64,000 bases of DNA. Source: Marivita geojedonensis (lineage in GTDB: Bacteria; Pseudomonadota; Alphaproteobacteria; Rhodobacterales; Rhodobacteraceae). Shown here piece after piece: positions 26,761 to 62,040 of this stretch. How positions within the stretch are numbered: the first letter of the stretch is position 1; each line of letters opens with the position of its first letter. A program made the position numbers and the translations under genes. The notes beneath the pieces are model-generated. The model was not told the origin of the DNA. It worked only from the letters and a program-made list of their open reading frames with translations, and ran no database searches. The stretch lies in assembly GCF_002115805.1 (NCBI RefSeq), contig NZ_JFKC01000020.1:1-64000 (forward strand), written 5' to 3'.

Positions 26761-28413
26761 ATGGCGGATCACCCGAATGTTCTGTGGATCATGGCCGACC
26801 AGCTCCGGTTCGATTACCTGAGTTGCTATGGCCACCCCCATCTGCACACGCCGCATATCGACGCGCTTGCGGCACGAGGGGTCCGCTTCACCAATGCCTA
26901 TGTGCAGTCTCCCGTTTGCGGACCGTCGAGGATGTCGGCCTATACCGGGCGATACGTCCGTTCGCACGGATCAACATGGAACGGCATGCCCCTGCGGGTG
27001 GGCGAGCCGACACTCGGTGACCATCTGAGGGCTGCCGGAGCACGGGCGGTTCTGGTGGGCAAGACCCATATGGCCGCAGACGCCGAAGGCATGGCGTGGC
27101 TGGGCATCGATCCCAAGAGCGAAATCGGCGTGCGGGTCTCGGAATGTGGGTTTGAGCCGTTCGAGCGCGACGACGGTCTGCATCCCAACAGTCCCCGACA
27201 GGGCTGGTCCGCCTATGACGATTATCTGGTTGCGCAGGGGTTCTGCTCGGACAACCCGTGGGAGGATTTCGCCAATTCCGGTGTCAGTGACAGCGGAGAA
27301 CGCCTGTCGGCCTGGCTCCTGAAAAATTCGCGTCTGCCGGCGAACGTGCCGGAGGAACACTCGGAAACCGCCTACATGACAAACCGGGCGATGGATTTCA
27401 TGCGTGAGGCGCGCTCGGATGGTCGCCCGTGGATGTGTCACCTCTCCTACATCAAACCGCACTGGCCCTATATCGTGCCCGCCCCGTATCATGCGATGTA
27501 CGACGAGACCCATATCGTTCCGCCAGTCCGGTCCGGTTCGGAGCGCGAGACCGATCACCCGCTGATGCAGGCCTATCTGGCGGCGCGAGTTTCCCAAAGC
27601 TTTTCGCGCGACCACGTCCGGGAGACAGTCATCCCAGCCTATATGGGGCTGATCAAACAGTTGGATGACAACCTTGGCAGGCTTTTTGCCTGGATGGATG
27701 AGACGGGTCTGAGCAAGTCGACGATTGTCGCCTTTACGTCGGATCACGGTGATTACATGGGCGACCACTGGATGGGGGACAAGGATTTCTATCACGAGAT
27801 GGCGGTCAAGGTGCCGTTGATCATCCATGATCCCCGCCCGGACGCCGACAGCACGCGCGGGAACACTTCGGAGGCGCTGGTTGAGATGATCGACCTCGCC
27901 CCGACCTTCATGGCGGCGTTGGGCTGTCCCGCCAAACCGCACGTCATCGAGGGACGGGATCTCACGCCCCTGCTGCACCGTACCGATGGATTTTCGCGGC
28001 GCTACGCGATCAGCGAACACGATTATCACTGGTCCGAGATGGCCCGGCAATTGAAACAGCCGCAGGATCAGGCGCATACGACGATGATCTTTGACGGGCG
28101 CTGGAAATTCATCCGCTGCGAGGGTTTCCGGCCCGTTCTCTTCGACCTGGAAACCGATCCGCAGGAACTGAAGGATCTGGGAGCGTCCGAAGAGGATGCG
28201 CATATCGCCGTCCGCGCACGGATGGAACGGGCGCTTCTTGACTGGGCTACACGGCATCACACCCGGATCACGGCAACACCCGAGCTTCTTGAGCGGCAGA
28301 AACTGGCGACCGAAGAAGGCATCCTGATCGGGTTCTGGGACGAGGAAGAGTTCGAAAACGTCACCGGCTTTCCGTTTTCGAGCCTCACACCACAGGGCAA
28401 ACCCAAAGACTGA
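26761..28413 (+). CDS. Sulfatase/phosphonate monoester hydrolase-like enzyme
   Basis: This 550-residue alkaline-phosphatase-superfamily hydrolase starts with PNVLWIMADQLRFDYLSCYG (metal-binding Asp) and carries the formylglycine motif CGPSR near residue 53, then GKTHMAADAE and FTSDHGDYMGDH with the second metal set. The segment APYHAMYDETHIVPP...HPLMQAYL resembles the phosphonate monoester hydrolase/phosphodiesterase branch more than aryl- or choline sulfatases. Substrate is therefore open: sulfate, phosphodiester or phosphonate esters. It lacks a signal peptide and is cytosolic. It lies directly downstream of tRNA-Ser and 82 bases before a cytochrome c gene. Confidence 0.85.
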   Translation: MADHPNVLWIMADQLRFDYLSCYGHPHLHTPHIDALAARGVRFTNAYVQSPVCGPSRMSAYTGRYVRSHGSTWNGMPLRVGEPTLGDHLRAAGARAVLVGKTHMAADAEGMAWLGIDPKSEIGVRVSECGFEPFERDDGLHPNSPRQGWSAYDDYLVAQGFCSDNPWEDFANSGVSDSGERLSAWLLKNSRLPANVPEEHSETAYMTNRAMDFMREARSDGRPWMCHLSYIKPHWPYIVPAPYHAMYDETHIVPPVRSGSERETDHPLMQAYLAARVSQSFSRDHVRETVIPAYMGLIKQLDDNLGRLFAWMDETGLSKSTIVAFTSDHGDYMGDHWMGDKDFYHEMAVKVPLIIHDPRPDADSTRGNTSEALVEMIDLAPTFMAALGCPAKPHVIEGRDLTPLLHRTDGFSRRYAISEHDYHWSEMARQLKQPQDQAHTTMIFDGRWKFIRCEGFRPVLFDLETDPQELKDLGASEEDAHIAVRARMERALLDWATRHHTRITATPELLERQKLATEEGILIGFWDEEEFENVTGFPFSSLTPQGKPKD

Positions 28414-28823: not shown

Positions 28824-29798
28824 TCATTCCGGCTTGCAGATCTCGCCGCGCCCAATCGCCAGGACCGTCCGCCAGACCAACCCGGCGATGATCATGCACA
28901 GCAACGCCAGCAACGCCCATCCAATCTCCGCAAAGACACCCGCGCCGGACAGTGCGGCATAGCGGAACGACGCAATCGTCATGGCAGCCATCGGGAAGGA
29001 CAGCGCCCAGAAGGAAAGCGCGAACGGCAGTTTCAGCAGGCTCGGGGCCTGAAGAAGAACAAGCGCCGTGAAGAACAGACCCAGGTTATAAAGCACGCGG
29101 GCCGGCGCATCGAGAACGCCGCCGTTCAGCTGCAGCCATGCGACGAAAGCCACCGCGGGCGGCGCAATCAAGATGGTCAGGGTCGGGCGCAGTTTGCCCG
29201 GAAGCGGATCGTGAAACACCAGCCGGTTGAACACCAGCGTCAGCAAGACGATCCAGAAAAGCACGCCCAGCGAAAAGAAGTACCAGCTTGCATCGACAAA
29301 TCCGAGCGACACTCCTGCAATCGGCGCCACCACGTTGCCCACCGCCGGGATGAACCAAGCCGGTGACATCTGCCCGACACCGAAGCCGCGATGGCTGATC
29401 CAACTGCTGACGATGGCAAGTGTCAGGATGGCCTGGAACACGGCCCCCACAACCCACACCCCGGACGCCAGCCCCGGCGCGGCGCCGCGCAGCGCAACGG
29501 CTGCGAGGAGCAGCGAAATGCTGATTGCGGGAAAGAAGGCAAGCTTGATGGGGTGGTTCCATTCTGCGGCAACGGCTGCGGGATGGCGCACCGCTTTGGC
29601 ACCGTAGAAACCAGCCTGCACCACAAAGACCACGGCAGCGAGTCCAGCGATGATCTGTCCGACCGCCTCGAACCCGGCAATTTCGAGCGCCAGCGAAGTT
29701 CCCATGAGCCCCATGACGGCGCTGAAGAACGCAACAGGGAAATGCTCCAGCCGGTTGTGCGGCACGGGCGCGCTTTGGTCGTGGGCGGTCTCTGTCAT
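28824..29798 (-). CDS. SLAC1/TDT family anion exporter
   Basis: This 324-residue membrane protein has about ten hydrophobic segments and the family opening NRLEHFPVAFFSAVMGLMG, with the pore-lining Phe and Gly pattern of TehA/SLAC1. Family members include tellurite resistance TehA, plant anion channel SLAC1 and the fungal sulfite pump SSU1. It is the last gene of a minus-strand run after SulP, SQR and persulfide dioxygenase, so export of sulfite, the toxic product of persulfide oxidation, is a reasonable inference. Confidence 0.85.
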   Translation of the reverse strand: MTETAHDQSAPVPHNRLEHFPVAFFSAVMGLMGTSLALEIAGFEAVGQIIAGLAAVVFVVQAGFYGAKAVRHPAAVAAEWNHPIKLAFFPAISISLLLAAVALRGAAPGLASGVWVVGAVFQAILTLAIVSSWISHRGFGVGQMSPAWFIPAVGNVVAPIAGVSLGFVDASWYFFSLGVLFWIVLLTLVFNRLVFHDPLPGKLRPTLTILIAPPAVAFVAWLQLNGGVLDAPARVLYNLGLFFTALVLLQAPSLLKLPFALSFWALSFPMAAMTIASFRYAALSGAGVFAEIGWALLALLCMIIAGLVWRTVLAIGRGEICKPE

Positions 29799-29840
29799 CT
29801 CTTGGTCCCTCTCGCGGCCCGGATGGGCACAGGTCTCAGA

Positions 29841-31580
29841 TTATTCGGCGGCGTTTTTCATCTCAGCGGATTTGGCAAGCGCCTTCCACGCGTCATATTG
29901 CGACAGGAACACATCGCCATTCAAATCCCGAAGGAAATGGGTCTGGTACAGACGGTCCATCACCGGGCCTTTGACCTCGGACAGGTGCAGCCCGATCCCC
30001 AGATCCGTCAGGCGGTGGTTGATGGATTCAAGGCTTTCTAGGGCCGAGAAATCCACCTCGTTCACCGCCGAGAACATCAGGATCACGTGCTTGATGGCAC
30101 AGCCATCCGAAACGCGGGACTGAATTAGATCCTCCAGGAACCGCGCGTTCACGAAATACAGGCTCTCATCGACCCGCAGACTCAGAACAGTCGGGTCGGT
30201 TGCAACCTTGTGGCGGTTGATGTTCCGGAAATGCTGGGTTCCCGGCACCAGACCGATCTCGGCCACGTGTGGGCGCGAGGTTTTGTAGAGGTGCAGCAAC
30301 ACTGAAATCCCGACACCCGAGGCCACACCGACCTCGACACCAAGTCCGAGCGTCAGCAGGATCGTTGCCGCCACGGCAATGAAATCGGCCTTGGAGTAGC
30401 CCCATGTCTTTTTCAGGATCGAGAAATCGACAAGGCTCAGAACAGCAACAACGATGGTTGCGGCAAGAGTCGCGGTCGGAAGGTAGTAAACCAACGGTGT
30501 CAATGCGACAGCTGCGATGGCCAGCCCGATGGCTGTAAACGCACCCGCGGCAGGCGTCTCGGCACCTGCGTCATAGTTCACGACCGACCGTGCAAACCCA
30601 CCCGTCACGGGGTACCCGCCGGTAAAGGCGGCACCAAGGTTGGCGGCACCGAGGCCAATCAGTTCCTGATCGGGATCGATTTTCTGACGCTTCTTTGCGG
30701 CCAGCGTCTGCGCCACGGAAACGGATTCCACAAATCCGATGATCGAAATCAGGATCGCAGGCATCATCAATTGACCGATCAGGTCGGGCGACAGCCCCGG
30801 CAAGGTGAAGGGGGGCAGCCCCTGTGGCACGTCACCGACGATCTTTACCCCCCGGTCGTCCAACCCGAAAAGCCACACCGACAGCGTGGTGACGGCTACT
30901 GCGGCCACCGGCCCGGCTTTTGTCAGCACATCCGCAAGAGTCGGTGACGCGCCAAGGCGGCGCAACATCGGCTTGAGACCTTTGCGCACCCAGAACAGGA
31001 ACGCCGTTGCCAACCCGCCAATGATCACCGTGATGATGTTGATCTCGCCAAGGTGCTCGCCCAGCGATGTCAGAAGCTGCGGCAGGGTATGACCATGCGC
31101 AGAAACGCCAAGCAGATGTTTCAGCTGGCTGAACGCAATGAGGATACCGGACGCGGTGATGAACCCGGCAATCACCGGATGGCTGAGAAAATTAGCGAGG
31201 AATCCAAGCCTCAGAATCCCCAGCAGAAGAAGGAATCCACCCGAAAGGAACGCAAGTGTCAGCGCGGCCACGGCATAGCCTGCCGTGCCCTGCTCGGCCA
31301 CCTGCCCCACGGCTGAGGCCGTCAGAAGCGACACCACGGCCACCGGCCCCACGGCAAGCGCCCGGCTGGTGCCGAAAATCGCATAGAGAATGATCGGAGC
31401 AATAGAGGCGTAAATCCCCGCCTCTGGCGGCAGACCGGCCAGCAGAGCATAGGCCAGCGACTGCGGGATCAGCATGATCGTTACGATCACCGCTGCGATC
31501 ATGTCATTGGAAAATGCGTTCCGGTCATAGGTCCGTCCCCAGTTGAGGATCGGGAAGTAACCGCGGAGATGATGGATCAT
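29841..31580 (-). CDS. SulP family inorganic anion transporter with STAS domain
   Basis: This 579-residue transporter has the SulP opening (FSNDMIAAVIVTIMLIPQSLAYALLAGLPPEAG is the conserved region; first helix near residue 28), about 12 membrane segments, the conserved GLGAANLGAAFTGGYPVTGGF region (about 300-320) and a cytoplasmic STAS domain from about residue 440. SulP proteins carry sulfate or bicarbonate. The position between the SQR fusion and the TDT gene points to sulfate or a related sulfur oxyanion. Direction cannot be told from sequence. Confidence 0.9.
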   Translation of the reverse strand: MIHHLRGYFPILNWGRTYDRNAFSNDMIAAVIVTIMLIPQSLAYALLAGLPPEAGIYASIAPIILYAIFGTSRALAVGPVAVVSLLTASAVGQVAEQGTAGYAVAALTLAFLSGGFLLLLGILRLGFLANFLSHPVIAGFITASGILIAFSQLKHLLGVSAHGHTLPQLLTSLGEHLGEINIITVIIGGLATAFLFWVRKGLKPMLRRLGASPTLADVLTKAGPVAAVAVTTLSVWLFGLDDRGVKIVGDVPQGLPPFTLPGLSPDLIGQLMMPAILISIIGFVESVSVAQTLAAKKRQKIDPDQELIGLGAANLGAAFTGGYPVTGGFARSVVNYDAGAETPAAGAFTAIGLAIAAVALTPLVYYLPTATLAATIVVAVLSLVDFSILKKTWGYSKADFIAVAATILLTLGLGVEVGVASGVGISVLLHLYKTSRPHVAEIGLVPGTQHFRNINRHKVATDPTVLSLRVDESLYFVNARFLEDLIQSRVSDGCAIKHVILMFSAVNEVDFSALESLESINHRLTDLGIGLHLSEVKGPVMDRLYQTHFLRDLNGDVFLSQYDAWKALAKSAEMKNAAE

Positions 31581-35517: not shown

Positions 35518-37389
35518 CTAGACCACCGCCTCGAAAGGCGTTTCCAACACGCCGACAAGAGGCATCAGAAAGCTGCCTGTTTCCGGGTCAAGCGCCTCCG
35601 CATAGGTTTGATCAATGGCGCTCAGAGCCGCCGTGACACTCCCCTCTGATCCGTCGAACAGCGCCATGGCATCCGTCGCGGCGTTTACGTCGGACAGCCC
35701 CCTATGAACCGCATATAACGCGCCGATATCGGTCTTCGTGGCCAGATACGCGCGGTCGGCAAGCTGCTGATCGATGAACGCCTGCGAAGCTCCGGGTTCC
35801 GGGTCAGCCTTGGCACCGTCCAGAACGGCAAGAATGAACTGATCGCGGGCGATGCCCCCGGAGTTCAGCGCATTCACCCAGAATTCAAACCCGTCCTGAT
35901 CCGGGATGCGCCCGAGAACGTTGTCATAGACCGAAGTTGCAAAAGCCTCATTGCTCAAATTCTCGGGATAGGTCGCGCGGGTTTCTTCCTGATCGATGAA
36001 CAGCGTTGCGATCTGGCTCAACGAAAACCCGTTTGCAAACGCCGTTCCCCAGAAGTTCAGCCCGATGGCATCCGGGGCACGGTTGAAATAAGCGATGTAA
36101 AGCTCGACAAAGCTCTCCAGCTCGTCCGCCGACAGTCCGGCCGGCCCGCCAAACTGCTCAAGATCGAGGGTCTGACGCTGATCGCCTGAATAGAATTCGA
36201 CCACTTCGATATCACGCAGAATGTCCGTGCCCGTCCCGTCGGCCCTACGATCCTGCATAGTGAACTCGTCAGCGGAAATCGTCAGGGTAAACGACGCCTG
36301 GTCTCCCGAAAAATATGCGAAATCCCGTCCGCCATCGCCCTCAAGAATGTCGTCCCCGGCGAAGCCCTCCAAATGATCGTTCCCGCCGCCACCTTCCAGA
36401 TGGTTGTCGTGTCGGCTGCCGTTGATCACGTCGGCAAAACGCGATCCGGTTGCATTCTCGATGTCTCCCATCAGCCAGACCAACTCGGTGGGGGCAGAAT
36501 TCACCAACCTCCCGTCATACTCCCGTGACGGCAGAGCCACTCCGGACAGGGTATCGACAAATGTTGTCGCGCTCAGATCCGGCAGGAAGATGGTCCACCC
36601 TTCGGACTGGGTCGAGACATCAACGCTGTCTACCCCGCCCGCATCCCAGATCGTGTAGTAGAAATCCTCGCTCTCAAGCAGAAATGTCGTATCACCCGCA
36701 TTGGTCTGCATATTCGGGCCGTACAGGAATTGAAGCGCCAGAACGTCCAGAACCATTGGCGTCGCCGGGTCCCATCGTTCCAGTTCCTGCTCGTACTGGT
36801 CCGTGTAGGACATGATGGTGAACCAATCGAGGTCGCGCACCAGTGACTGATCCAACTGGTCAAGCGTCGGACGGCCAGGGCTGCTGTCGAACGGATGCTT
36901 CAATCCCAGCGCATGACCGATCTCGTGGATCACTGTCACGAACCCGTCCGATCCCGGCCGAAAACTCGACGAGGAAATGATCTCGGCCGAGAAGTTCAGG
37001 AAAACGTCGCCACCTTCGGTTTCGTACTGCTCGAAGTCCGAAAAAACACCGGGACCGGGATAATACGCGTAGGCCAGCGTGCCGTCGTCGACCTCGGCAT
37101 TGTCCAGCGTATAGACAATGTCCGCCCCCGCCTCACCTGCGGAAATCGGGCTGTCGAAGGCGTCGAGATAGACAAACTCGACATTGATGAACTGCTGGAT
37201 CGACGCAAGAGCCGCCGCAAAGATCTGGATCGCTTCCGCTTCGTCCGCCCAGACATACGCGTTCAGCCCATCCGCAACAGCCCAAGTGATCGTGCGGCTT
37301 TGAGCCAGGTCCCAGACAATGCCATCCGCAAGCACGTCGATGATGGGATCATTGGTCGGCTGATAGGTGGCCGCGGTGAGAAACGCCAT
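35518..37389 (-). CDS. Serralysin-like M10 metalloprotease with RTX and DUF4214
   Basis: This 623-residue secreted protease has the metzincin zinc motif HEIGHALGLKH at 155-165 and a Met-turn (TIMSYTDQYE) about 30 residues later. A Gly/Asp-rich calcium-binding RTX stretch (GGGGNDHLEGFAGDDILEGDGG) follows near residue 340, and a C-terminal DUF4214 domain (VELYIAYFNRAPDAIGLNFW; VYDNVLGRIPDQDGFEFWVN) completes it. There is no N-terminal signal peptide; RTX proteins leave through type I secretion with a C-terminal signal. No T1SS genes lie nearby. DUF4214 occurs in surface-layer and adhesive proteins. Confidence 0.9.
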   Translation of the reverse strand: MAFLTAATYQPTNDPIIDVLADGIVWDLAQSRTITWAVADGLNAYVWADEAEAIQIFAAALASIQQFINVEFVYLDAFDSPISAGEAGADIVYTLDNAEVDDGTLAYAYYPGPGVFSDFEQYETEGGDVFLNFSAEIISSSSFRPGSDGFVTVIHEIGHALGLKHPFDSSPGRPTLDQLDQSLVRDLDWFTIMSYTDQYEQELERWDPATPMVLDVLALQFLYGPNMQTNAGDTTFLLESEDFYYTIWDAGGVDSVDVSTQSEGWTIFLPDLSATTFVDTLSGVALPSREYDGRLVNSAPTELVWLMGDIENATGSRFADVINGSRHDNHLEGGGGNDHLEGFAGDDILEGDGGRDFAYFSGDQASFTLTISADEFTMQDRRADGTGTDILRDIEVVEFYSGDQRQTLDLEQFGGPAGLSADELESFVELYIAYFNRAPDAIGLNFWGTAFANGFSLSQIATLFIDQEETRATYPENLSNEAFATSVYDNVLGRIPDQDGFEFWVNALNSGGIARDQFILAVLDGAKADPEPGASQAFIDQQLADRAYLATKTDIGALYAVHRGLSDVNAATDAMALFDGSEGSVTAALSAIDQTYAEALDPETGSFLMPLVGVLETPFEAVV

Positions 37390-37508: not shown

Positions 37509-38513
37509 TCAGACCATCCAGAAGCCGTTCTTCTTGATCCGTTGACGGATCGGTTGCTCCTTCTGCGGAAGATGGTCCTGATCGAACAGCGCCCGCACCT
37601 TGTGGCCGCGGTTCTGGTAGATCATCCGCTTGAACGGCTCGTATTCCTTCATCAGTTTCTTGACCGGGTTCGGCGCGGAAATGTCTTCGAGCAGATCGAT
37701 CACCGCATCGCTTTCGCGCGCATAGAGCAACGGCATATTGCGGTAGTGAACGCTGGTTTTTCCGTCCAGATACCCCTCCGGCAGCGCATCACGCCCACCT
37801 CCCAGCTTGTGGATCACCAGAGGAAGCGCGATCTGATCCAACCACGGCTTGAGCGGCTGACAGACAAGCTCTTTGGGCGGGTCTTTCTGAATGGACAGCG
37901 CAAAGTCGAGATAGGTCTGCCCGAAGACATGCGGACAGGAATAGAAGAAATACCCCGCATTGAAATACAGATAGCGCCGCCAGTATTCATCCGGCTGCGA
38001 CAGATCCAGTGAGCTTTTGAAATCCAGATCGAACCGGTCATACAGAGATTTCCAGATCTCGGTATAACCCGGCCCGTACAGCTCGATCTGCGGCCACGTC
38101 CCTTCAACCCGCAATGATGCCCCCGGTCGATTGAAATCGAACGGCACCTCGCCAAGGTCTCCGGTGATCAGGGTGTCGGTGTCGAAGAACACGAACGGCT
38201 CACCCTTGGGCAACGCGAACAGCGCTTCGATCTTGTTGCCATAGGGATATTCGCTTCCGAAATGCCTGTTTTCAAATGGCAGGATTGTTGCGCCCTGCGC
38301 TTCGATCAGGGACCGAAGCGGATCCGGTCGGATCGTCGGATCGGTCTGCCAGTTCGGCCCGGGCTGCGGTTCGGCTACATAGAGCCGAAACCTCGGATCC
38401 GGCGTGTTGGCCCGCATCGACAGGGCAAACAACAAAGCCTCATAGGCCAACCGTCCCATCTGGCCAACAATCACAACATTTACATTCACTGGTTTTGCCG
38501 GGCGGCGTGCCAT
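37509..38513 (-). CDS. Putative GT-A-fold glycosyltransferase-like protein
   Basis: This 334-residue soluble protein has an N-terminal alpha/beta region (VNVVIVGQMGRLAYEALLFAL) and a DxD-like metal motif in VFFDTDTLITGDLGEV near residue 112, as in GT-A nucleotide-sugar enzymes. Later YLYFNAGYFFYSC and HYRNMPLL resemble acceptor-site strands of the same fold. No polysaccharide cluster surrounds it. It is a conserved-looking hypothetical; enzymatic function is inferred only from the DxD and strand pattern. Confidence 0.7.
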   Translation of the reverse strand: MARRPAKPVNVNVVIVGQMGRLAYEALLFALSMRANTPDPRFRLYVAEPQPGPNWQTDPTIRPDPLRSLIEAQGATILPFENRHFGSEYPYGNKIEALFALPKGEPFVFFDTDTLITGDLGEVPFDFNRPGASLRVEGTWPQIELYGPGYTEIWKSLYDRFDLDFKSSLDLSQPDEYWRRYLYFNAGYFFYSCPHVFGQTYLDFALSIQKDPPKELVCQPLKPWLDQIALPLVIHKLGGGRDALPEGYLDGKTSVHYRNMPLLYARESDAVIDLLEDISAPNPVKKLMKEYEPFKRMIYQNRGHKVRALFDQDHLPQKEQPIRQRIKKNGFWMV

Positions 38514-38588: not shown

Positions 38589-39287
38589 TCACTCTGACAA
38601 AATCTCGTAGACAAGTGTTACTCCGGCGCGCAGTTCGGTCTCGCCCTCCGCAACCGGAACCGCCGCATCGGACGCGCGCGCCATGCCCATCATTTCTGGC
38701 CGTGGCATCGGCGTTCCGGTCTCACTCAGGCTGATCAGACCGCCAAGCTGCACGCCTGCCGCGTCTGCCAACAGTTCGGCTCTCGCCCGTGCATCGGCAA
38801 CCGCGCGCACCCGCGCCTCGTTCAGCAGGGGCTCAGGGTCTGACACCGTGAACTGCAACCCTCCCAACTGGTTCGCACCGTCGCGCAGCAGGGCATCCAG
38901 AACCCCGCCCAGGGCGTCCAGCTCGCGCACCCGCACCGTCACCCGGTTCGAGGCCTGGTAGCCCTCGATCCGCGGACGGTCATCCGTGGTCGCCCGGTGG
39001 TTCCAGATGGGATTGAGAGACAGGTCGGATGTCTGGATATCCCGACCCTCGATGCCCGCGTCCGCAAGCCGAGCAAGAATCGCCGATGTGATGTCCGAGG
39101 TCTGATCCATGGCCTCCTGCGCGGTCGATGCGTCAGCCATCGCACCAACCGACACCACAGCCAAATCCGGAACGGCAAACACGCTGCCTTCTCCGGAGAC
39201 GGTCAACTGCCCGGTTGTTTCGGCCCAAACAGGCGAAATCCCGACAAAGGCAACGACGGCAGCAACGAGGGCTGTGGACTTGAACAT
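38589..39287 (-). CDS. Periplasmic SIMPL-domain (DUF541) protein
   Basis: This 232-residue protein has a signal peptide (MFKSTALVAAVVAFVGISPV, cleavage after WAE) and a SIMPL domain: TVSGEGSVFAVPDLAVVSVG, then GIEGRDIQTSDLSLNP, YQASNRVTVRVREL and ARARAELLADAAGVQLG, the four family blocks in order. Family members such as BP26/OMP28 form ring-like oligomers in the periplasm, with unclear function. ATG 39287 has AGGAAG upstream. It is divergent from the large fusion gene. Confidence 0.9.
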   Translation of the reverse strand: MFKSTALVAAVVAFVGISPVWAETTGQLTVSGEGSVFAVPDLAVVSVGAMADASTAQEAMDQTSDITSAILARLADAGIEGRDIQTSDLSLNPIWNHRATTDDRPRIEGYQASNRVTVRVRELDALGGVLDALLRDGANQLGGLQFTVSDPEPLLNEARVRAVADARARAELLADAAGVQLGGLISLSETGTPMPRPEMMGMARASDAAVPVAEGETELRAGVTLVYEILSE

Positions 39288-39442
39288 GGGGCTTCCTATC
39301 TCGCGAGATGACGGTACAACAATTGCCGTGTGATGATGTGGTGACAAGCGCGGATTTTTCCCCGCGCGGAAGACCGCTTTGTCGCGCTCAACTGGAGTCT
39401 AAGTGACTCCCATCCTGTGCCAAGGGCTGTTAAAATAGTGAT

Positions 39443-41971
39443 ATGAAGCCAGACTTTGCCCTGACTCTCTCTTTTGAAGGTATCTCGCTGCTGCGCCGTG
39501 TTGCCAACGGGTGGGCGTTGGTCGGCGATGTTGCTCTTGATGCAACCGATCTGCGTGGCGCGCTTGCCGCTCTGCGTTCCGAGGCCGACGCACTGTCGGC
39601 GCATGGCGGGCAGGTCAAACTCGTCATACCGAACGAGCAGATCAAATACCTGTCGATCCCCGACACCAGTCTGACCGGCGATGCGCTTCAGGACACCATC
39701 CGCACCGCGCTCGATGGCGCAACGCCATATGCTGTGGACGATCTCAGCTTTGACTGGTCGCAGAGCGGCGGCGCCCTGCACATCGCAGCCGTAGCAAACG
39801 AAACGCTGGACGAGGCCGAGGCGTTCGCGAAAAGCCATCATTTCGATCCGGTCGGTTTTGTTGCAATCGCGCCCGAAGGCGAATTTTCCGGCGAAGTCTT
39901 TTTCGGCCCTGCAGCAAGCTGGACCGGGGACGCACCGTCAAAGGACGAGGCCGCGATCACAATCGTACCCGCAGATGCGGTCATCGAACCTGACACAGTC
40001 CCGACCGAAGCCGAGCCCGTAGCGGAACAGTCGGCAGCGCCTGAGCCGGTTCACGAGGATGTTCCGGCAGCAGATACACCCGTCGAAGAAGATGTCGGCT
40101 CCGATGATGACGACGCGCTCGCACCCGGTGCAGCGGATCCGGACACCATCACAGCCGAAGCCGAGGACCTGCCGCCCACGCCAGCCCCGCCGGAGCCGCA
40201 GCCCGCTGCACCCGCCATTTCCCCGGCGGGCCCTCCAGCGGCACCGTCATTCTCATCGATCCGCGCATCGCGCCCTTCCAACAGTCCGGAGCCGCCCGCA
40301 ACACCGGCACCAAAGATCGCTGCGCCCACCCCTGACGCCAGTCCAACCGCACGTTTCAAACTTGGTGGCGCGCGCAAGTCGGCGCGTGACACGGACATAA
40401 CCGCACCGGTCCTTCAGGATGAGGCCCTTGAGGATGTTCAGGAACGCAGAGGCTTTGGCTTTTTCAGCCGCCGCAAATCCGACAGGCCGGAACCTGCTGC
40501 AAAGACACCGCCCCCCATAAAGGCGACGCCGGAACCGGAGCTGCCCGCAGCGCCACCGAAGCCAAAACATGATCCCGAACCGGCCCGCGCGGCTGTCGCG
40601 CGGATTGCAGCGCTGCGTGCCGGTCGGTCAACCAAACCCACTCCGCCGGAACAGCCAAAGATAGACGACGAACGTGAACGCATGACGATCTTCGGTGCCC
40701 GCACCGAACCTCAGATCGGCGGCAAGCCGCGGTTCCTCGGCCTCATGCTCACCAGCGCTCTGCTGATCTTCCTGCTCGCGGTTGCGGCATGGGCCAGCGT
40801 CTTTCTGGACGAAGGATTGTCCCGTTTCTTTGACCGCGATGGTGGCACGCCATCCATCGCCCGCCTGCCGGACGTGGAACTGCAGCCGCTGGACGGCTCG
40901 GTTACAGCGCCCCCAGAGACAGGCTCGGACATCCAGCTTGCTGCGTTGGAAACCGGGGACGAGCTTGCGACAGACGATGGGCTGTCCTCTGTGCTCCCGC
41001 CTCCTGCCGCGCTGACCCCCGAGGAAGCGGATGCGCGTTACGCTGCAACCGGGATCTGGCAACGCTCGCCTGAGGCCCCTGCCCCGCCGACGCAAACCAC
41101 GCTCGATGATCTCTACGTCGCCTCCATCGACGGACGGGTCGAGCAGTTCGACGCGGTCGCCCTGCCCGGTGCCGATACGCTACGCAACGATCTGGCCTAC
41201 CTGTCCCAACCCGATCCTGCCCCTCCGGGAACGCGGTTCACCCTTGATGAGCGCGGATTGGTCATCGCGACACCTGAGGGGACGGTCAATCCCGAGGGCG
41301 TTCGCGTCTTCGCCGGGCTTCCCCCCGTGGTACCACCGGCGCGCCCGACCCCTCCGGCCATCGCTTCAACGCCGGATGCCGCTACCGACGAGGCGGCTGT
41401 TGCACCAGAGCTGCAGGCGTTCCGCCCTAGGGTCCGGCCCGAGGGCCTGATCGAAGGTAATGAACGCGCCCAACTCGGGGGTCGCACCCGAGCCGAACTG
41501 GCCGCTCTGCGACCGTCGGCACGCCCCGAGACCCTGAAGGCCGAGGAAGAAGAGGCACAGCCCGAGGCCACGAAATTCGCCGTCGCTCAGTCCTCTGCGC
41601 CGGTGACCCGCCCCCGCAACTTTGCGACCATTGTCGAGCGCGCGCGCGAAAGCCAGCAAAGCCGCGAACCCGAGGTCACTCAGGTCGCTGCGGTTGCACC
41701 ACGCACCGTCCAGCCAAGCATCCCATCGACCGCCAATGTGGCCCGTCAGGCCACCGTGACCAATGCCATCAACCTGCGCCGCATCAACCTGATCGGCGTC
41801 TATGGCAAACCCTCCAACCGCCGCGCGCTCGTACGTCTGTCGAACGGGCGTTACCAGAAGGTGCAGGTCGGTGACAGCCTGGATGGCGGGCGCGTCGCGG
41901 CCATCGGCAACAGCGAATTGCGCTACACCAAGAACGGACGGAATGTTGTTCTTGATATGCCGGACGGCTGA
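39443..41971 (+). CDS. Large PilM/GspL-like + TM + PilP/GspC-like fusion protein
   Basis: This 842-residue protein is not a named family to me. Residues about 1-165 follow the pattern of the PilM/GspL actin-like domain: IRTALDGATPYAVDDLSFDW, then IAAVANETLDEAEAFAKSHH and DPVGFVAI. Residues about 170-425 are a Pro/Ala/Glu-rich linker with basic patches. One hydrophobic helix lies near 432-456 (LMLTSALLIFLLAVAAWASV). A second Pro-rich stretch (about 460-770) leads to a compact C-terminal domain (777-842: INLIGVYGKPSNRRALVRLS, then VGDSLDGGRVAAIG, YTKNGRNVVL) that resembles the PilP/GspC homology domain. That would place a cytoplasmic platform-like domain and a periplasmic secretin-contact-like domain in one chain. 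No type II secretion or type IV pilus gene lies in the window. Confidence 0.75.
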   Translation: MKPDFALTLSFEGISLLRRVANGWALVGDVALDATDLRGALAALRSEADALSAHGGQVKLVIPNEQIKYLSIPDTSLTGDALQDTIRTALDGATPYAVDDLSFDWSQSGGALHIAAVANETLDEAEAFAKSHHFDPVGFVAIAPEGEFSGEVFFGPAASWTGDAPSKDEAAITIVPADAVIEPDTVPTEAEPVAEQSAAPEPVHEDVPAADTPVEEDVGSDDDDALAPGAADPDTITAEAEDLPPTPAPPEPQPAAPAISPAGPPAAPSFSSIRASRPSNSPEPPATPAPKIAAPTPDASPTARFKLGGARKSARDTDITAPVLQDEALEDVQERRGFGFFSRRKSDRPEPAAKTPPPIKATPEPELPAAPPKPKHDPEPARAAVARIAALRAGRSTKPTPPEQPKIDDERERMTIFGARTEPQIGGKPRFLGLMLTSALLIFLLAVAAWASVFLDEGLSRFFDRDGGTPSIARLPDVELQPLDGSVTAPPETGSDIQLAALETGDELATDDGLSSVLPPPAALTPEEADARYAATGIWQRSPEAPAPPTQTTLDDLYVASIDGRVEQFDAVALPGADTLRNDLAYLSQPDPAPPGTRFTLDERGLVIATPEGTVNPEGVRVFAGLPPVVPPARPTPPAIASTPDAATDEAAVAPELQAFRPRVRPEGLIEGNERAQLGGRTRAELAALRPSARPETLKAEEEEAQPEATKFAVAQSSAPVTRPRNFATIVERARESQQSREPEVTQVAAVAPRTVQPSIPSTANVARQATVTNAINLRRINLIGVYGKPSNRRALVRLSNGRYQKVQVGDSLDGGRVAAIGNSELRYTKNGRNVVLDMPDG

Positions 41972-42108
41972 CACAAGGCCGACGGCACGCACAGCCTTTA
42001 AGCGCAATCGGCCGCTATGCCAAAAAATTCGGCAAAGCGACCGCCAACCGGTTGCCTTCTCCGCCCGAAGCCCGTCATCCTGAGTTCAATTCGAAAGGCA
42101 CAAGCTCA

Positions 42109-43989
42109 ATGGGTGAATTTCTTTTCCTCGCGTCGGTGTTCCTGCTGGCAGCGGTGATTGCCGTGCCGATTGCCGCGCGTCTCGGGCTGGGCTCGGTGCT
42201 GGGCTACCTGCTGGCCGGGGTCGCCATCGGGCCGGGGCTGGGACTTGTCGCCGACACGACGGACCTCCAGCACTTCGCCGAATTCGGCGTGGTGATGATG
42301 CTTTTCCTGATCGGGCTTGAACTCGAACCACGCGCGCTCTGGGACATGCGCCATCGCCTGATCGGCCTTGGCGGGCTGCAGGTCGTTCTGACCATGCTCG
42401 CCGTCATGGCTGCCGCGATGGGACTTGGCTTCGCCTGGCAGACCGCGCTTGTGATCGGGATGATCTTTGCGCTGTCATCGACAGCCATCGTCCTGCAAAC
42501 CCTCAGCGAAAAGGGACTGATGCAGACCAGCGGCGGCAGATCGACGTTTTCGGTCCTGCTCACTCAGGACATCGCGGTGATCCCGATGCTGATCATTCTG
42601 CCGCTGCTCGCCGTGCCGATTGGCCCAACGCTTTCTGCGGACGGCTCCATCACCCGACAGCCGCTCGAACATGCGGAAGAGGCACACGGACACGCGATGT
42701 CGCTTGTCGAAGGCCTGCCCGGTTGGGGCGTCACGCTCGTAACGCTCGGCGCGGTTGCCCTGATCATCCTTGGCGGCATCTACGGGGCACGACCGCTCTT
42801 CCGCTTCATCCACGCCGCTCGCCTGCGCGAGATGTATACCGCGCTTGCCCTACTCATCGTGATCGGCATTGCCTTCCTGATGACCGCAGTCGGCCTGTCC
42901 CCCGCGCTTGGGACATTCCTCGCCGGTGTCGTGCTTGCGAACAGCGAATTCCGGCACGAACTGGAATCGGACATCGAGCCGTTCAAGGGGATGCTTCTGG
43001 GGCTGTTCTTCATCACCGTCGGGGCCGGAATCGACTTCGGTCTGTTTTTCTCTCAACCCGTCACGATCCTCGGACTCGCACTGGGGATCATGCTTCTCAA
43101 GGGCGTGATCCTCTACGGGCTGGGCGTTGCGTTCAAGTTGCGCGGACGGGATCAATGGCTCTTTACCCTCGGCCTCGCCCAGGCCGGGGAATTCGGCTTT
43201 GTGCTGATCTCCTTCTCGCTTCAGCAGGCCATCCTTCCTGAATACATTGCCAACCGCCTGTTGCTGATCGTGGCGCTGTCGATGCTGATCACACCATTGG
43301 CCTTTATTCTTTACGAGGTGCTGTCCAAACGGATGAAGGACGGCTCTGAAGAACATGAACATGACGAGATCGACGAACAGGGTGCTGTGATCATCGCCGG
43401 GATCGGACGCTTCGGGCAGATCGTAAACCGGCTGGTGCAATCCGTGGGCGCAAAGACGGTCGTGATCGACAACAATCTGCAAACCATCCAACTCATGCGC
43501 CGGTTCGGCTATCAGGGCTTCTTCGGTGATCCGCTCCGTCCTGATCTTCTGCACGCCGCAGGCATCGACACGGCCCGCGTGCTCATGGTTGCCTTGGACG
43601 ATCCGGTGGCGGCGGAACGGCTTGTCAAATACGCCCGCCGACTGCGCCCGGACATTCACATCGTCGCCCGGTCACGAGACCGGACCCACACCTACCGGCT
43701 CTATCAGGCCGGTGCGGATGACATCGTGCGCGAACTCTTCGACAGCTCGCTCCGTGCCGGACGCTATGTGCTCGAAAATATCGGCCTGTCAGAGTACGAA
43801 GCCTCGCAGGCCGAAAAACTGTTCTACCAGCACGACCGCTACACCGTTCGTGAACTCGCAAGCCTCTGGGACCCGAACGTGCCCTCTGCCCAGAACGAGG
43901 CCTACATCGCCCGTGCGAAAGAACTCGAGAAAGAGCTTGAAGCGTCATTGCTTGCCGCGCTCGAAGCCAGCAACGACGATGCCGCATAG
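42109..43989 (+). CDS. Kef-type monovalent cation:proton antiporter
   Basis: This 626-residue CPA2 antiporter has about 12 membrane helices, starting MGEFLFLASVFLLAAVIAVP, with the conserved FLIGLELEPRALWDMR and ALSSTAIVLQTL regions and the ion-site segment SPALGTFLAGVVLAN. A RCK/TrkA-N domain from about residue 425 (VIIAGIGRFGQIVNRLVQ; VVIDNN) binds NAD(H), followed by an acidic coiled tail. KefB/KefC members exchange K+ for H+ and are gated by glutathione adducts; no ancillary KefF/G gene is seen. ATG 42109 is preceded by AAAGG. Confidence 0.92.
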   Translation: MGEFLFLASVFLLAAVIAVPIAARLGLGSVLGYLLAGVAIGPGLGLVADTTDLQHFAEFGVVMMLFLIGLELEPRALWDMRHRLIGLGGLQVVLTMLAVMAAAMGLGFAWQTALVIGMIFALSSTAIVLQTLSEKGLMQTSGGRSTFSVLLTQDIAVIPMLIILPLLAVPIGPTLSADGSITRQPLEHAEEAHGHAMSLVEGLPGWGVTLVTLGAVALIILGGIYGARPLFRFIHAARLREMYTALALLIVIGIAFLMTAVGLSPALGTFLAGVVLANSEFRHELESDIEPFKGMLLGLFFITVGAGIDFGLFFSQPVTILGLALGIMLLKGVILYGLGVAFKLRGRDQWLFTLGLAQAGEFGFVLISFSLQQAILPEYIANRLLLIVALSMLITPLAFILYEVLSKRMKDGSEEHEHDEIDEQGAVIIAGIGRFGQIVNRLVQSVGAKTVVIDNNLQTIQLMRRFGYQGFFGDPLRPDLLHAAGIDTARVLMVALDDPVAAERLVKYARRLRPDIHIVARSRDRTHTYRLYQAGADDIVRELFDSSLRAGRYVLENIGLSEYEASQAEKLFYQHDRYTVRELASLWDPNVPSAQNEAYIARAKELEKELEASLLAALEASNDDAA

Positions 43990-60434: not shown

Positions 60435-61940
60435 TCATTCCCCACGCGGGAAGCGCTGGCTTTCCTCAAGCACGTTCAGATCCATGTGGTTGCGCATGAA
60501 CCGCTCTGACGCGTCCCGCAAAGGCTGGTAATCCCACGGGTAATATCCACCCTGGCGCAACGCCTCATAAACCACCCAGCGTTTTGCCTGGCTTGCCCGC
60601 ACATCGGCATCGAAGCGCGCCAGATCCCAGCGCGCTTCGGATTTCGCCCGCAGCGTCTGTACCGTGCCCTGATGGTCGGGATGGTCGGCCAGGTTGGTCA
60701 ACTCGTGCGGATCGGCCTCCAGATCGAAGAGCTGATCGGGGTCCAGCGCACAGCGGTTGTACTTCCACTTGCCATAGCGCAGGGACACCAGCGGCGCATA
60801 AGACGCCTCGGCCGCGTACTCCATCGCCACCGGGCTGGTGCGTTCTCCGCCCTGCCCCAGAGGCACAAGCGATTCCCCCGTCGTCCACGGCATCACCTCG
60901 TCCATGCTCACGCCAGCCAAAGCACAAAGCGTCGGGCAGACGTCGATGGTCGAAACCGGATCGGTGACAAGGCCGACCGCCATTTCTGGCGCCGAGATCA
61001 TCAGCGGCACCCGCGACGAGCCTTCGTAGAAGCACATCTTGAACCACAACCCGCGCTCGCCCAGCATGTCACCGTGATCGGACACGAAGAGGATGATCGC
61101 TTCCTGCCGCGTGTCTTCGAGCACCTGCAGGATCTCGCCAATCTTATCGTCGAGGTAAGAGATGTTGGCGAAATAGGCGCGGCGCGACCGGCGGATGTCG
61201 TCTTCCGTGATGTCGAAACTGCGCCAGTCATTGGCGTCGAAGATCCGCTTGGCGTGCGGGTCGTGATCTTCGTAATCCATCGCCGGGATTTCGGGCAGCA
61301 GGTGCTCGCAGTCTTCGTAGAGATCCCAGTATTTCCGTCGCGCCACATAAGGGTCGTGCGGATGGGTGAAGCTCGCCGTCAGGCACCACGGGCGGTCATC
61401 CTTGCGCCGCGCCAGATCGTACAGCGCCAGCTTGGCCTGGTAGGCCACCTCGTCATCGTATTCGAGCTGGTTGGTGATCTCGGCCACCCCCGCGCCCGTG
61501 ACCGAGCCCATGTTGTGATACCACCAGTCGATCCGCTCGCCCGGCTTGCGGTAGTCGGGCGTCCAGCCGAAATCGGCCGGGTAGATGTCGGTGGTCAGAC
61601 GCGCCTCGAACCCGTGCAGCTGGTCCGGGCCAACGAAATGCATCTTGCCGGACAGCGCGGTGTAGTAGCCGGCGCGGCGCAGGTGATGCGCATAGGTTGG
61701 AATCGACGATGTGAATTCGGCGGCGTTGTCATAGACGCCCGTGGCCGACGGCAACTGCCCGGACATGAAACTCGCCCGCCCCGGCGCGCAGAGCGGGCTG
61801 GCGGTATAGGCGTTCCGAAACCGGGTCGAGCGCGCCGCGAGCTTCTTCAGGTTGGGCGCGTGCAGCCAATCGGCGGGACCATCGGGAAACAGCGTTCCGT
61901 TCAACTGGTCCACCATCAGAATCAGGATGTTCGGCTGCAT
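60435..61940 (-). CDS. betC: Choline-sulfatase
   Basis: BetC hydrolyses choline-O-sulfate to choline and sulfate, feeding glycine betaine synthesis and supplying sulfur. The 501-residue sulfatase starts with MQPNILILMVDQLNGTLFPD (metal Asp), has the formylglycine motif in LCAPGRASFMSG near residue 52, GKMHFVGPDQLHGFE near 98 and FVSDHGDMLGERG near 295, and the BetC-typical tail with GGYYPWDYQP. I chose ATG 61940; the frame to 61973 adds unlike residues. No betAB genes adjoin it. Confidence 0.92.
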   Translation of the reverse strand: MQPNILILMVDQLNGTLFPDGPADWLHAPNLKKLAARSTRFRNAYTASPLCAPGRASFMSGQLPSATGVYDNAAEFTSSIPTYAHHLRRAGYYTALSGKMHFVGPDQLHGFEARLTTDIYPADFGWTPDYRKPGERIDWWYHNMGSVTGAGVAEITNQLEYDDEVAYQAKLALYDLARRKDDRPWCLTASFTHPHDPYVARRKYWDLYEDCEHLLPEIPAMDYEDHDPHAKRIFDANDWRSFDITEDDIRRSRRAYFANISYLDDKIGEILQVLEDTRQEAIILFVSDHGDMLGERGLWFKMCFYEGSSRVPLMISAPEMAVGLVTDPVSTIDVCPTLCALAGVSMDEVMPWTTGESLVPLGQGGERTSPVAMEYAAEASYAPLVSLRYGKWKYNRCALDPDQLFDLEADPHELTNLADHPDHQGTVQTLRAKSEARWDLARFDADVRASQAKRWVVYEALRQGGYYPWDYQPLRDASERFMRNHMDLNVLEESQRFPRGE

Positions 61941-62040
61941 GATCGGTCCCTCGTGCCGGTTATCGCGCGACACTGGTCGGATCGTCTGGTGGCGTCAATG
62001 CAATCGGTTTCGAATTGGGCTGCGCACGATCCGACGGATT

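Follow-up and report, generated by a model that had tools for sequence, protein, structure and literature searches.

We found that a gene in a 64,000-nucleotide stretch of Marivita geojedonensis DNA (the window) encodes what is, with near certainty, a chimera: a single-pass inner-membrane protein that joins a cytoplasmic domain of the GspL type to an HR domain of the GspC/PilP type (Table 1). Its reading frame is free of internal stops, and the chain is conserved from end to end in other Marivita, with identities of 64-76% in the best segment. An earlier note on this DNA had recognized in it the domains, their order and the topology of the assembly platform of type II secretion systems (T2SS) and type IV pili (T4P), and fold, profile and charge data agree with that reading; its suggestion that three or four normally separate proteins are combined in one chain is borne out for two of them, GspM, PilN and PilO parts being absent from the chimera. 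Because of this architecture and its analogy with GspB, we think it somewhat probable that a part of the T2SS assembly platform has been reused as a stand-alone trans-envelope scaffold that belongs to the core genome of Rhodobacteraceae, and the minimal scaffold imagined in that note is still a plausible description. The chimera is kept in species that lost the rest of the T2SS machine and was hence probably redeployed for another envelope-spanning job.

Table 1. The chimeric gene, the segments of its product and two flanking genes (positions in the window)
Feature	Position	Strand	Basis or remark
Chimeric protein	39443..41971	+	842 aa plus stop; translation, homologues over full length
GspL/PilM-type cytoplasmic domain, residues 1-163	39443..39931	+	AF2 model, PDB folds, profile match to true GspL, hhalign
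Cytoplasmic Pro-rich linker, residues 164-430	39932..40732	+	Variable except for conserved juxtamembrane residues 411-430 (ERMTIFGAR...GGKPR)
Single membrane-spanning helix, residues 431-449, cytoplasmic N-terminus	40733..40789	+	Helix prediction, charge pattern, pN/pS
Periplasmic Pro-rich spacer, residues 450-762	40790..41728	+	
Conserved part of spacer, residues 522-699	41006..41539	+	Carries YAATGIWQ and a pair of RPxxRP motifs (661-666, 690-695)
HR domain of GspC/PilP/GspB type, residues 763-842	41729..41968	+	Pfam/TIGR profiles, AF2 model, PDB folds
Divergent SIMPL (DUF541) gene	38589..39347	-	Pfam SIMPL E 2.5e-58; shares upstream region with the chimera
Cation:proton antiporter, KefB type	42052..43989	+	Pfam Na_H_Exchanger, TrkA_N; downstream neighbor

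Foldseek searches of the PDB with the AF2 model of the N-terminal domain (residues 1-163; pLDDT 95.2, pTM 0.88) returned GspL cytoplasmic domains as the top folds (5tkw, E 3.7e-8; 1yf5; 4pht), with PilM (5eoy, 5eou, 2ych) ranking after GspL and FtsA (E from 2.4e-4) forming the next fold group below both; the identity to the GspL/PilM matches is 12-17%. Sequence-profile searches of the PDB with either domain gave chance matches or none, and the Pfam PilM_2 model is too weak on single N-terminal domains (best 0.028; 0.21 for the Marivita chimera); against the PDB, the domains of the chimera are recognizable only by fold and profile-profile comparison. When 193 genomes of the class were searched with a family profile of the N-terminal domain, no genome outside Rhodobacteraceae was matched barring one (E 1.7e-6), and that sole match is a true GspL encoded in a gspK-gspL-gspM operon. 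In a profile-profile comparison with hhalign, the domain aligned with alphaproteobacterial GspLs over 139 columns (probability 97.4; E 1.1e-11, which applies to this one pair). The cytoplasmic part of these GspLs is equally short, and relative to them the N-terminal domain is therefore complete. It is shorter than PilM, with about 160 residues preceding the disordered linker, and does not form the complete four-subdomain actin fold with a nucleotide site that characterizes PilM; since only the first half of the actin fold is present, nucleotide binding is unlikely.

The chimera thus shares with GspL (PulL/EpsL), and especially with the short alphaproteobacterial versions found in gspK-L-M-HR operons, an actin-like cytoplasmic domain, a short folded cytoplasmic part and a single helix with the N-terminus inside. 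True GspLs match the PilN-like (ferredoxin-like) periplasmic domain, whereas the chimera yields no match to it and displays instead a long Pro-rich arm with an HR domain, and its gene lies in a housekeeping context rather than in a T2SS operon with gspK and gspM. In a tree of the N-terminal domain, 20 alphaproteobacterial GspLs split from the chimeras with a support of 100/99, and the GspL of one member of Rhodobacteraceae (G089) falls among the short-linker chimeras with weak support. This tree is compatible with an origin from the GspL of the Rhodobacteraceae lineage, and fits either direction of change, fusion or fission, as well as one origin or several.

The C-terminal domain (approximately residues 763-842) is predicted by AF2 to contain six strands, with a pLDDT of 93-97 in the folded part. 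In the PDB, it is closest in fold to PilP (3jc8_Pa, E 9.4e-4) and the HR domain of GspC (3oss_C, TM-score of 0.78 on the target), with further matches to LspC, the PulC HR domain, Neisseria PilP and GspB (4wfw); unrelated folds did not occur at either end of the chain. Matches to the Pfam PilP profile were recovered in 42 of 42 aligned homologues at E <= 1 (best 1.4e-5) and to TIGR03021 (pilP_fam) in 40 of the 42, the Marivita chimera scoring below the curated cut-offs of both (18.2 vs 25.6 bits and 28.3 vs 34.65, respectively). As in GspC and PilP, the HR domain is located at or near the C-terminus. When the HR profile was run over the class, it found 20 places outside Rhodobacteraceae, 13 of which lie <=4.5 kb from an independently found gspL, mostly at a spacing of 1-2 kb; in two genomes (G332 and G089) the HR gene directly or nearly directly follows gspM. 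Taken with the match of the N-terminal domain to GspL, these HR matches near gspL indicate that both ends of the chimera are homologous to neighbors in one T2SS operon.

GspC, which functions together with GspD, extends only a short tail into the cytoplasm, whereas the chimera combines the same HR fold with a 430-residue cytoplasmic part that includes the GspL-like domain, and does not need a secretin. Its N-terminal domain also resembles the first half of PilM and its C-terminal domain PilP; however, PilM is soluble and about twice the length of the N-terminal domain, PilP is a separate lipoprotein, and the chimera lacks the PilN and PilO that accompany them. PilP-type matches in roseobacters are no evidence of type IV pili. 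Genes labeled 'type IV pilus biogenesis' (Shim_13020, MALG_02262; tags not mapped to the chimera family) have been listed across roseobacters (PMC4818494). Elsewhere in the Marivita genome (contig C73, ~29743-30009; L115:5744-6010, minus strand), a near-pure HR protein of 88 residues with no predicted helix adjoins purF (GspC_delta E 7.7e-6; T2SSC E 3.8e-4), and similar frames of 85-125 residues occur in many relatives; this free HR protein is perhaps paralogous to the chimera or interacts with it.

Both domains are found on one ORF in 125 cases (a count that includes some loci held twice), 116 of which have exactly one predicted helix, a pairing that goes beyond chance. The charge pattern is positive-inside, with a cytoplasmic N-terminus, in 109 of 109 distinct homologues with a helix between the domains; one homologue (L127) has no helix predicted there. 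Proline accounts for 19.5% of the cytoplasmic linker and 12.8% of the periplasmic spacer, and the fold of the conserved part of the spacer is predicted in part only. The RPxxRP motifs repeat in the spacer, each homologue having about two on average, whereas adjacent genes seldom contain them. Purifying selection, gauged against eight Marivita sequences, is strongest on the juxtamembrane/helix segment (residues 411-460, pN/pS 0.04-0.11) and the HR domain (0.04-0.15), with 0.18-0.25 in the N-terminal domain and about 0.5 in the cytoplasmic linker, these being rough values because synonymous substitutions approach saturation in several of the pairs compared. The juxtamembrane motif and helix being constrained like the HR domain suggests that they engage a membrane partner or an oligomer.

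A single helix, a Pro-rich arm and a C-terminal HR domain (4wfw) are likewise displayed by GspB/OutB. With its one helix and its HR domain, this protein connects the secretin to both peptidoglycan and the inner membrane (PMC9239104, PMC12274547), and variable cytoplasmic add-ons and GspAB fusions have been described (PMC9239104). GspB is reported from gamma- and betaproteobacteria. Unlike GspB, which works with GspD plus GspA or a pilotin (GspS), the chimera bears a GspL-like add-on and needs no secretin. Literature searches on the chimera itself found nothing.

The proposal that the protein links an ATPase-like partner to a secretin fails as an obligate role. Fifteen of the 150 family genomes have no match to the PF00263 secretin profile, which would miss too divergent a secretin, and all 15 keep the chimera; 12 of these are also without a PF00437 (T2SSE/GspE-type) ATPase (G067, G080, G091, G118, G122, G139, G143, G153, G162, G174, G176 and G184). 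The layout with both domains was read directly in nine of the 12 (L122, L123, L128, L130, L131, L132, L142, L221 and L222). Hence, neither a secretin nor a GspE-type ATPase is an obligate partner. In keeping with this, the presence of the chimera is not associated with that of a secretin (Fisher p 0.18 by the N-domain profile alone; p 1.0 counting divergent members), many carriers have no GspD-type secretin, and no STN (N0-type) domain that could partner the HR domain scores in Marivita or the 12 genomes without secretin and ATPase (13 in all). The 4.3 Mb Marivita genome with the chimera encodes two secretins beside T2SSE-type ATPases (contigs C25 and C34), in loci that are Tad-like in gene order and sizes; the contig with the chimera (C13) has no secretin or T2SSE match, and no GspD-sized secretin was found in the genome. 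A PilM_2 match elsewhere in the genome proved to be MreB, followed by an MreC-like gene, and was rejected as a PilM; no other PilM or GspL was found there.

One alternative is that the protein serves the Tad pilus. Tad has no PilM/PilN/PilO/PilP alignment complex; the chimera would take its place and use the HR domain to tether the Tad secretin. In GspC and GspB, the HR domain binds secretins at their N0 domain (PMC3169554, PMC9239104). A secretin is present in 135 of the 150 family genomes, mostly of Tad-secretin size, and most carriers of the chimera have a Tad-type secretin. Nevertheless, we regard this explanation as unlikely, given the retention of the protein in the genomes without secretin or ATPase and the lack of linkage to Tad loci, which in Marivita lie on other contigs; neither the co-occurrence nor the linkage with Tad genes that would mark a Tad component was observed. 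Moreover, Caulobacter has a secretin match, yet within the class the N-domain profile finds the chimera only in Rhodobacteraceae. Occasional use of the chimera with Tad may still take place.

The earlier note saw no pilus or secretion gene in the locus, and secretion genes are likewise absent from the recurrent neighbors across 108 loci, in 19 of which the automatic gene order was not anchorable. These neighbors are housekeeping genes such as metZ, kefB, hppD, carD and a ferredoxin gene, together with the divergent SIMPL gene and a gene that matches nothing in Pfam (37509-38513 in the window), and there is no conserved operon partner of secretion type among these loci. The SIMPL gene is located upstream and opposite to the chimera in 69 of 72 places, with 95 bp between them in Marivita, and gene order makes its product a candidate partner; the kefB-type antiporter gene lies downstream on the same strand in 57 of 61. 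Farther away, the window codes for a serralysin-like metalloprotease with an RTX repeat and DUF4214 (35518-37389, minus strand) and two sulfatases (26761-28410, plus strand; 60438-61973, minus strand), of which the latter has a C-terminal domain of the choline-sulfatase type.

A single-pass protein whose two ends are folded domains and whose most constrained stretch is the juxtamembrane/helix segment could also be an envelope sensor or regulator, whose HR domain senses the state of the periplasm or cell wall and whose GspL-like domain relays it to a cytosolic protein. We hold this to be quite unlikely, as the chimera contains no signaling domain and no regulator gene is a constant neighbor; to our knowledge, neither end resembles any known sensor.

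Among 150 genera drawn from Rhodobacteraceae, the N-domain profile detects the chimera in 142, and six further genera hold the HR domain. Such near-universality, together with the rank of FtsA directly behind GspL and PilM in the fold search, might point to a scaffold of cell division or elongation with an FtsA-like fold. This is very unlikely: GspL and PilM fit far better than FtsA, the length leaves no room for the FtsA-type nucleotide-binding half, the HR domain is indicative of a secretion scaffold, and the gene lies outside division gene clusters. Although both domains derive from that platform, an assembly-platform role in a genuine T2SS or T4P can be dismissed with little hesitation, since the GspM/PilN/PilO parts are missing, Marivita has neither a GspD-sized secretin nor another PilM/GspL, and retention without secretin and ATPase contradicts it for at least 12 genera.

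Returning to the stand-alone scaffold, we tentatively go further and posit a core trans-envelope device of the whole family that is free of secretin and ATPase, a hitherto undescribed type of tether or signaling strut that has an outer partner of its own (e.g., a SIMPL protein or the cell wall). In such a device, the GspL-like domain would dock a cytosolic partner other than GspE, the conserved juxtamembrane/helix segment would hold the chimera in a membrane complex or oligomer, and the Pro-rich arm of ~310 residues would carry the HR domain across the periplasm, where its tip could bind something other than a secretin in the cell wall or at the outer membrane, one candidate being the SIMPL protein. 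No partner was found among the secretins, GspE-type ATPases, STN domains and operon genes examined. Because secretion-machine parts are retained here as a core protein where the machine is missing, the functions of GspL and HR domains can be studied in isolation, and since almost all sampled genera of this major marine family have the protein, it likely matters for their envelope biology.

The genomes missed by the N-domain profile are of several kinds. Two (G118, G174) encode full-length chains with a detectable N-terminal domain, a third (G148) a full-length chain with a very weak match to it (E 0.011), and in others the chimera is cut by a contig end (G123) or there is a short ORF only (G066); neither the chimera nor its parts were found in G172, an assembly of 320 contigs. 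G089 is the one well-assembled genome of the family without the chimera, and has instead a separate gspL-gspM-HR trio among housekeeping genes (L225:5774-7958, plus strand), which we rejected as a member of the chimera family, being a true gspL-M-HR module. In G031 (L157), the syntenic place is unchanged and is occupied by an HR protein that starts with a hydrophobic segment and lacks the GspL-like part, suggesting that the docking part is not always needed. The two domains are on adjacent ORFs in G094 (L134) and on overlapping ORFs in G030 (L158), the latter being a true two-ORF form or a frameshift. Together with G031, these variants indicate that the parts can separate and that the HR part can persist alone. 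The split ORFs of L149 seem to result from a frameshift in an otherwise ordinary chimera and were discarded as a variant. Finally, Marivita lacus has a second, divergent copy of the chimera (L101:8001-9968, a 662-aa frame on the 14.7 kb contig NZ_BMFC01000029.1), and G175 has a second GspL-like N-terminal domain at the end of a 289-aa frame with no helix or HR domain (L154:7574-8443, minus strand).
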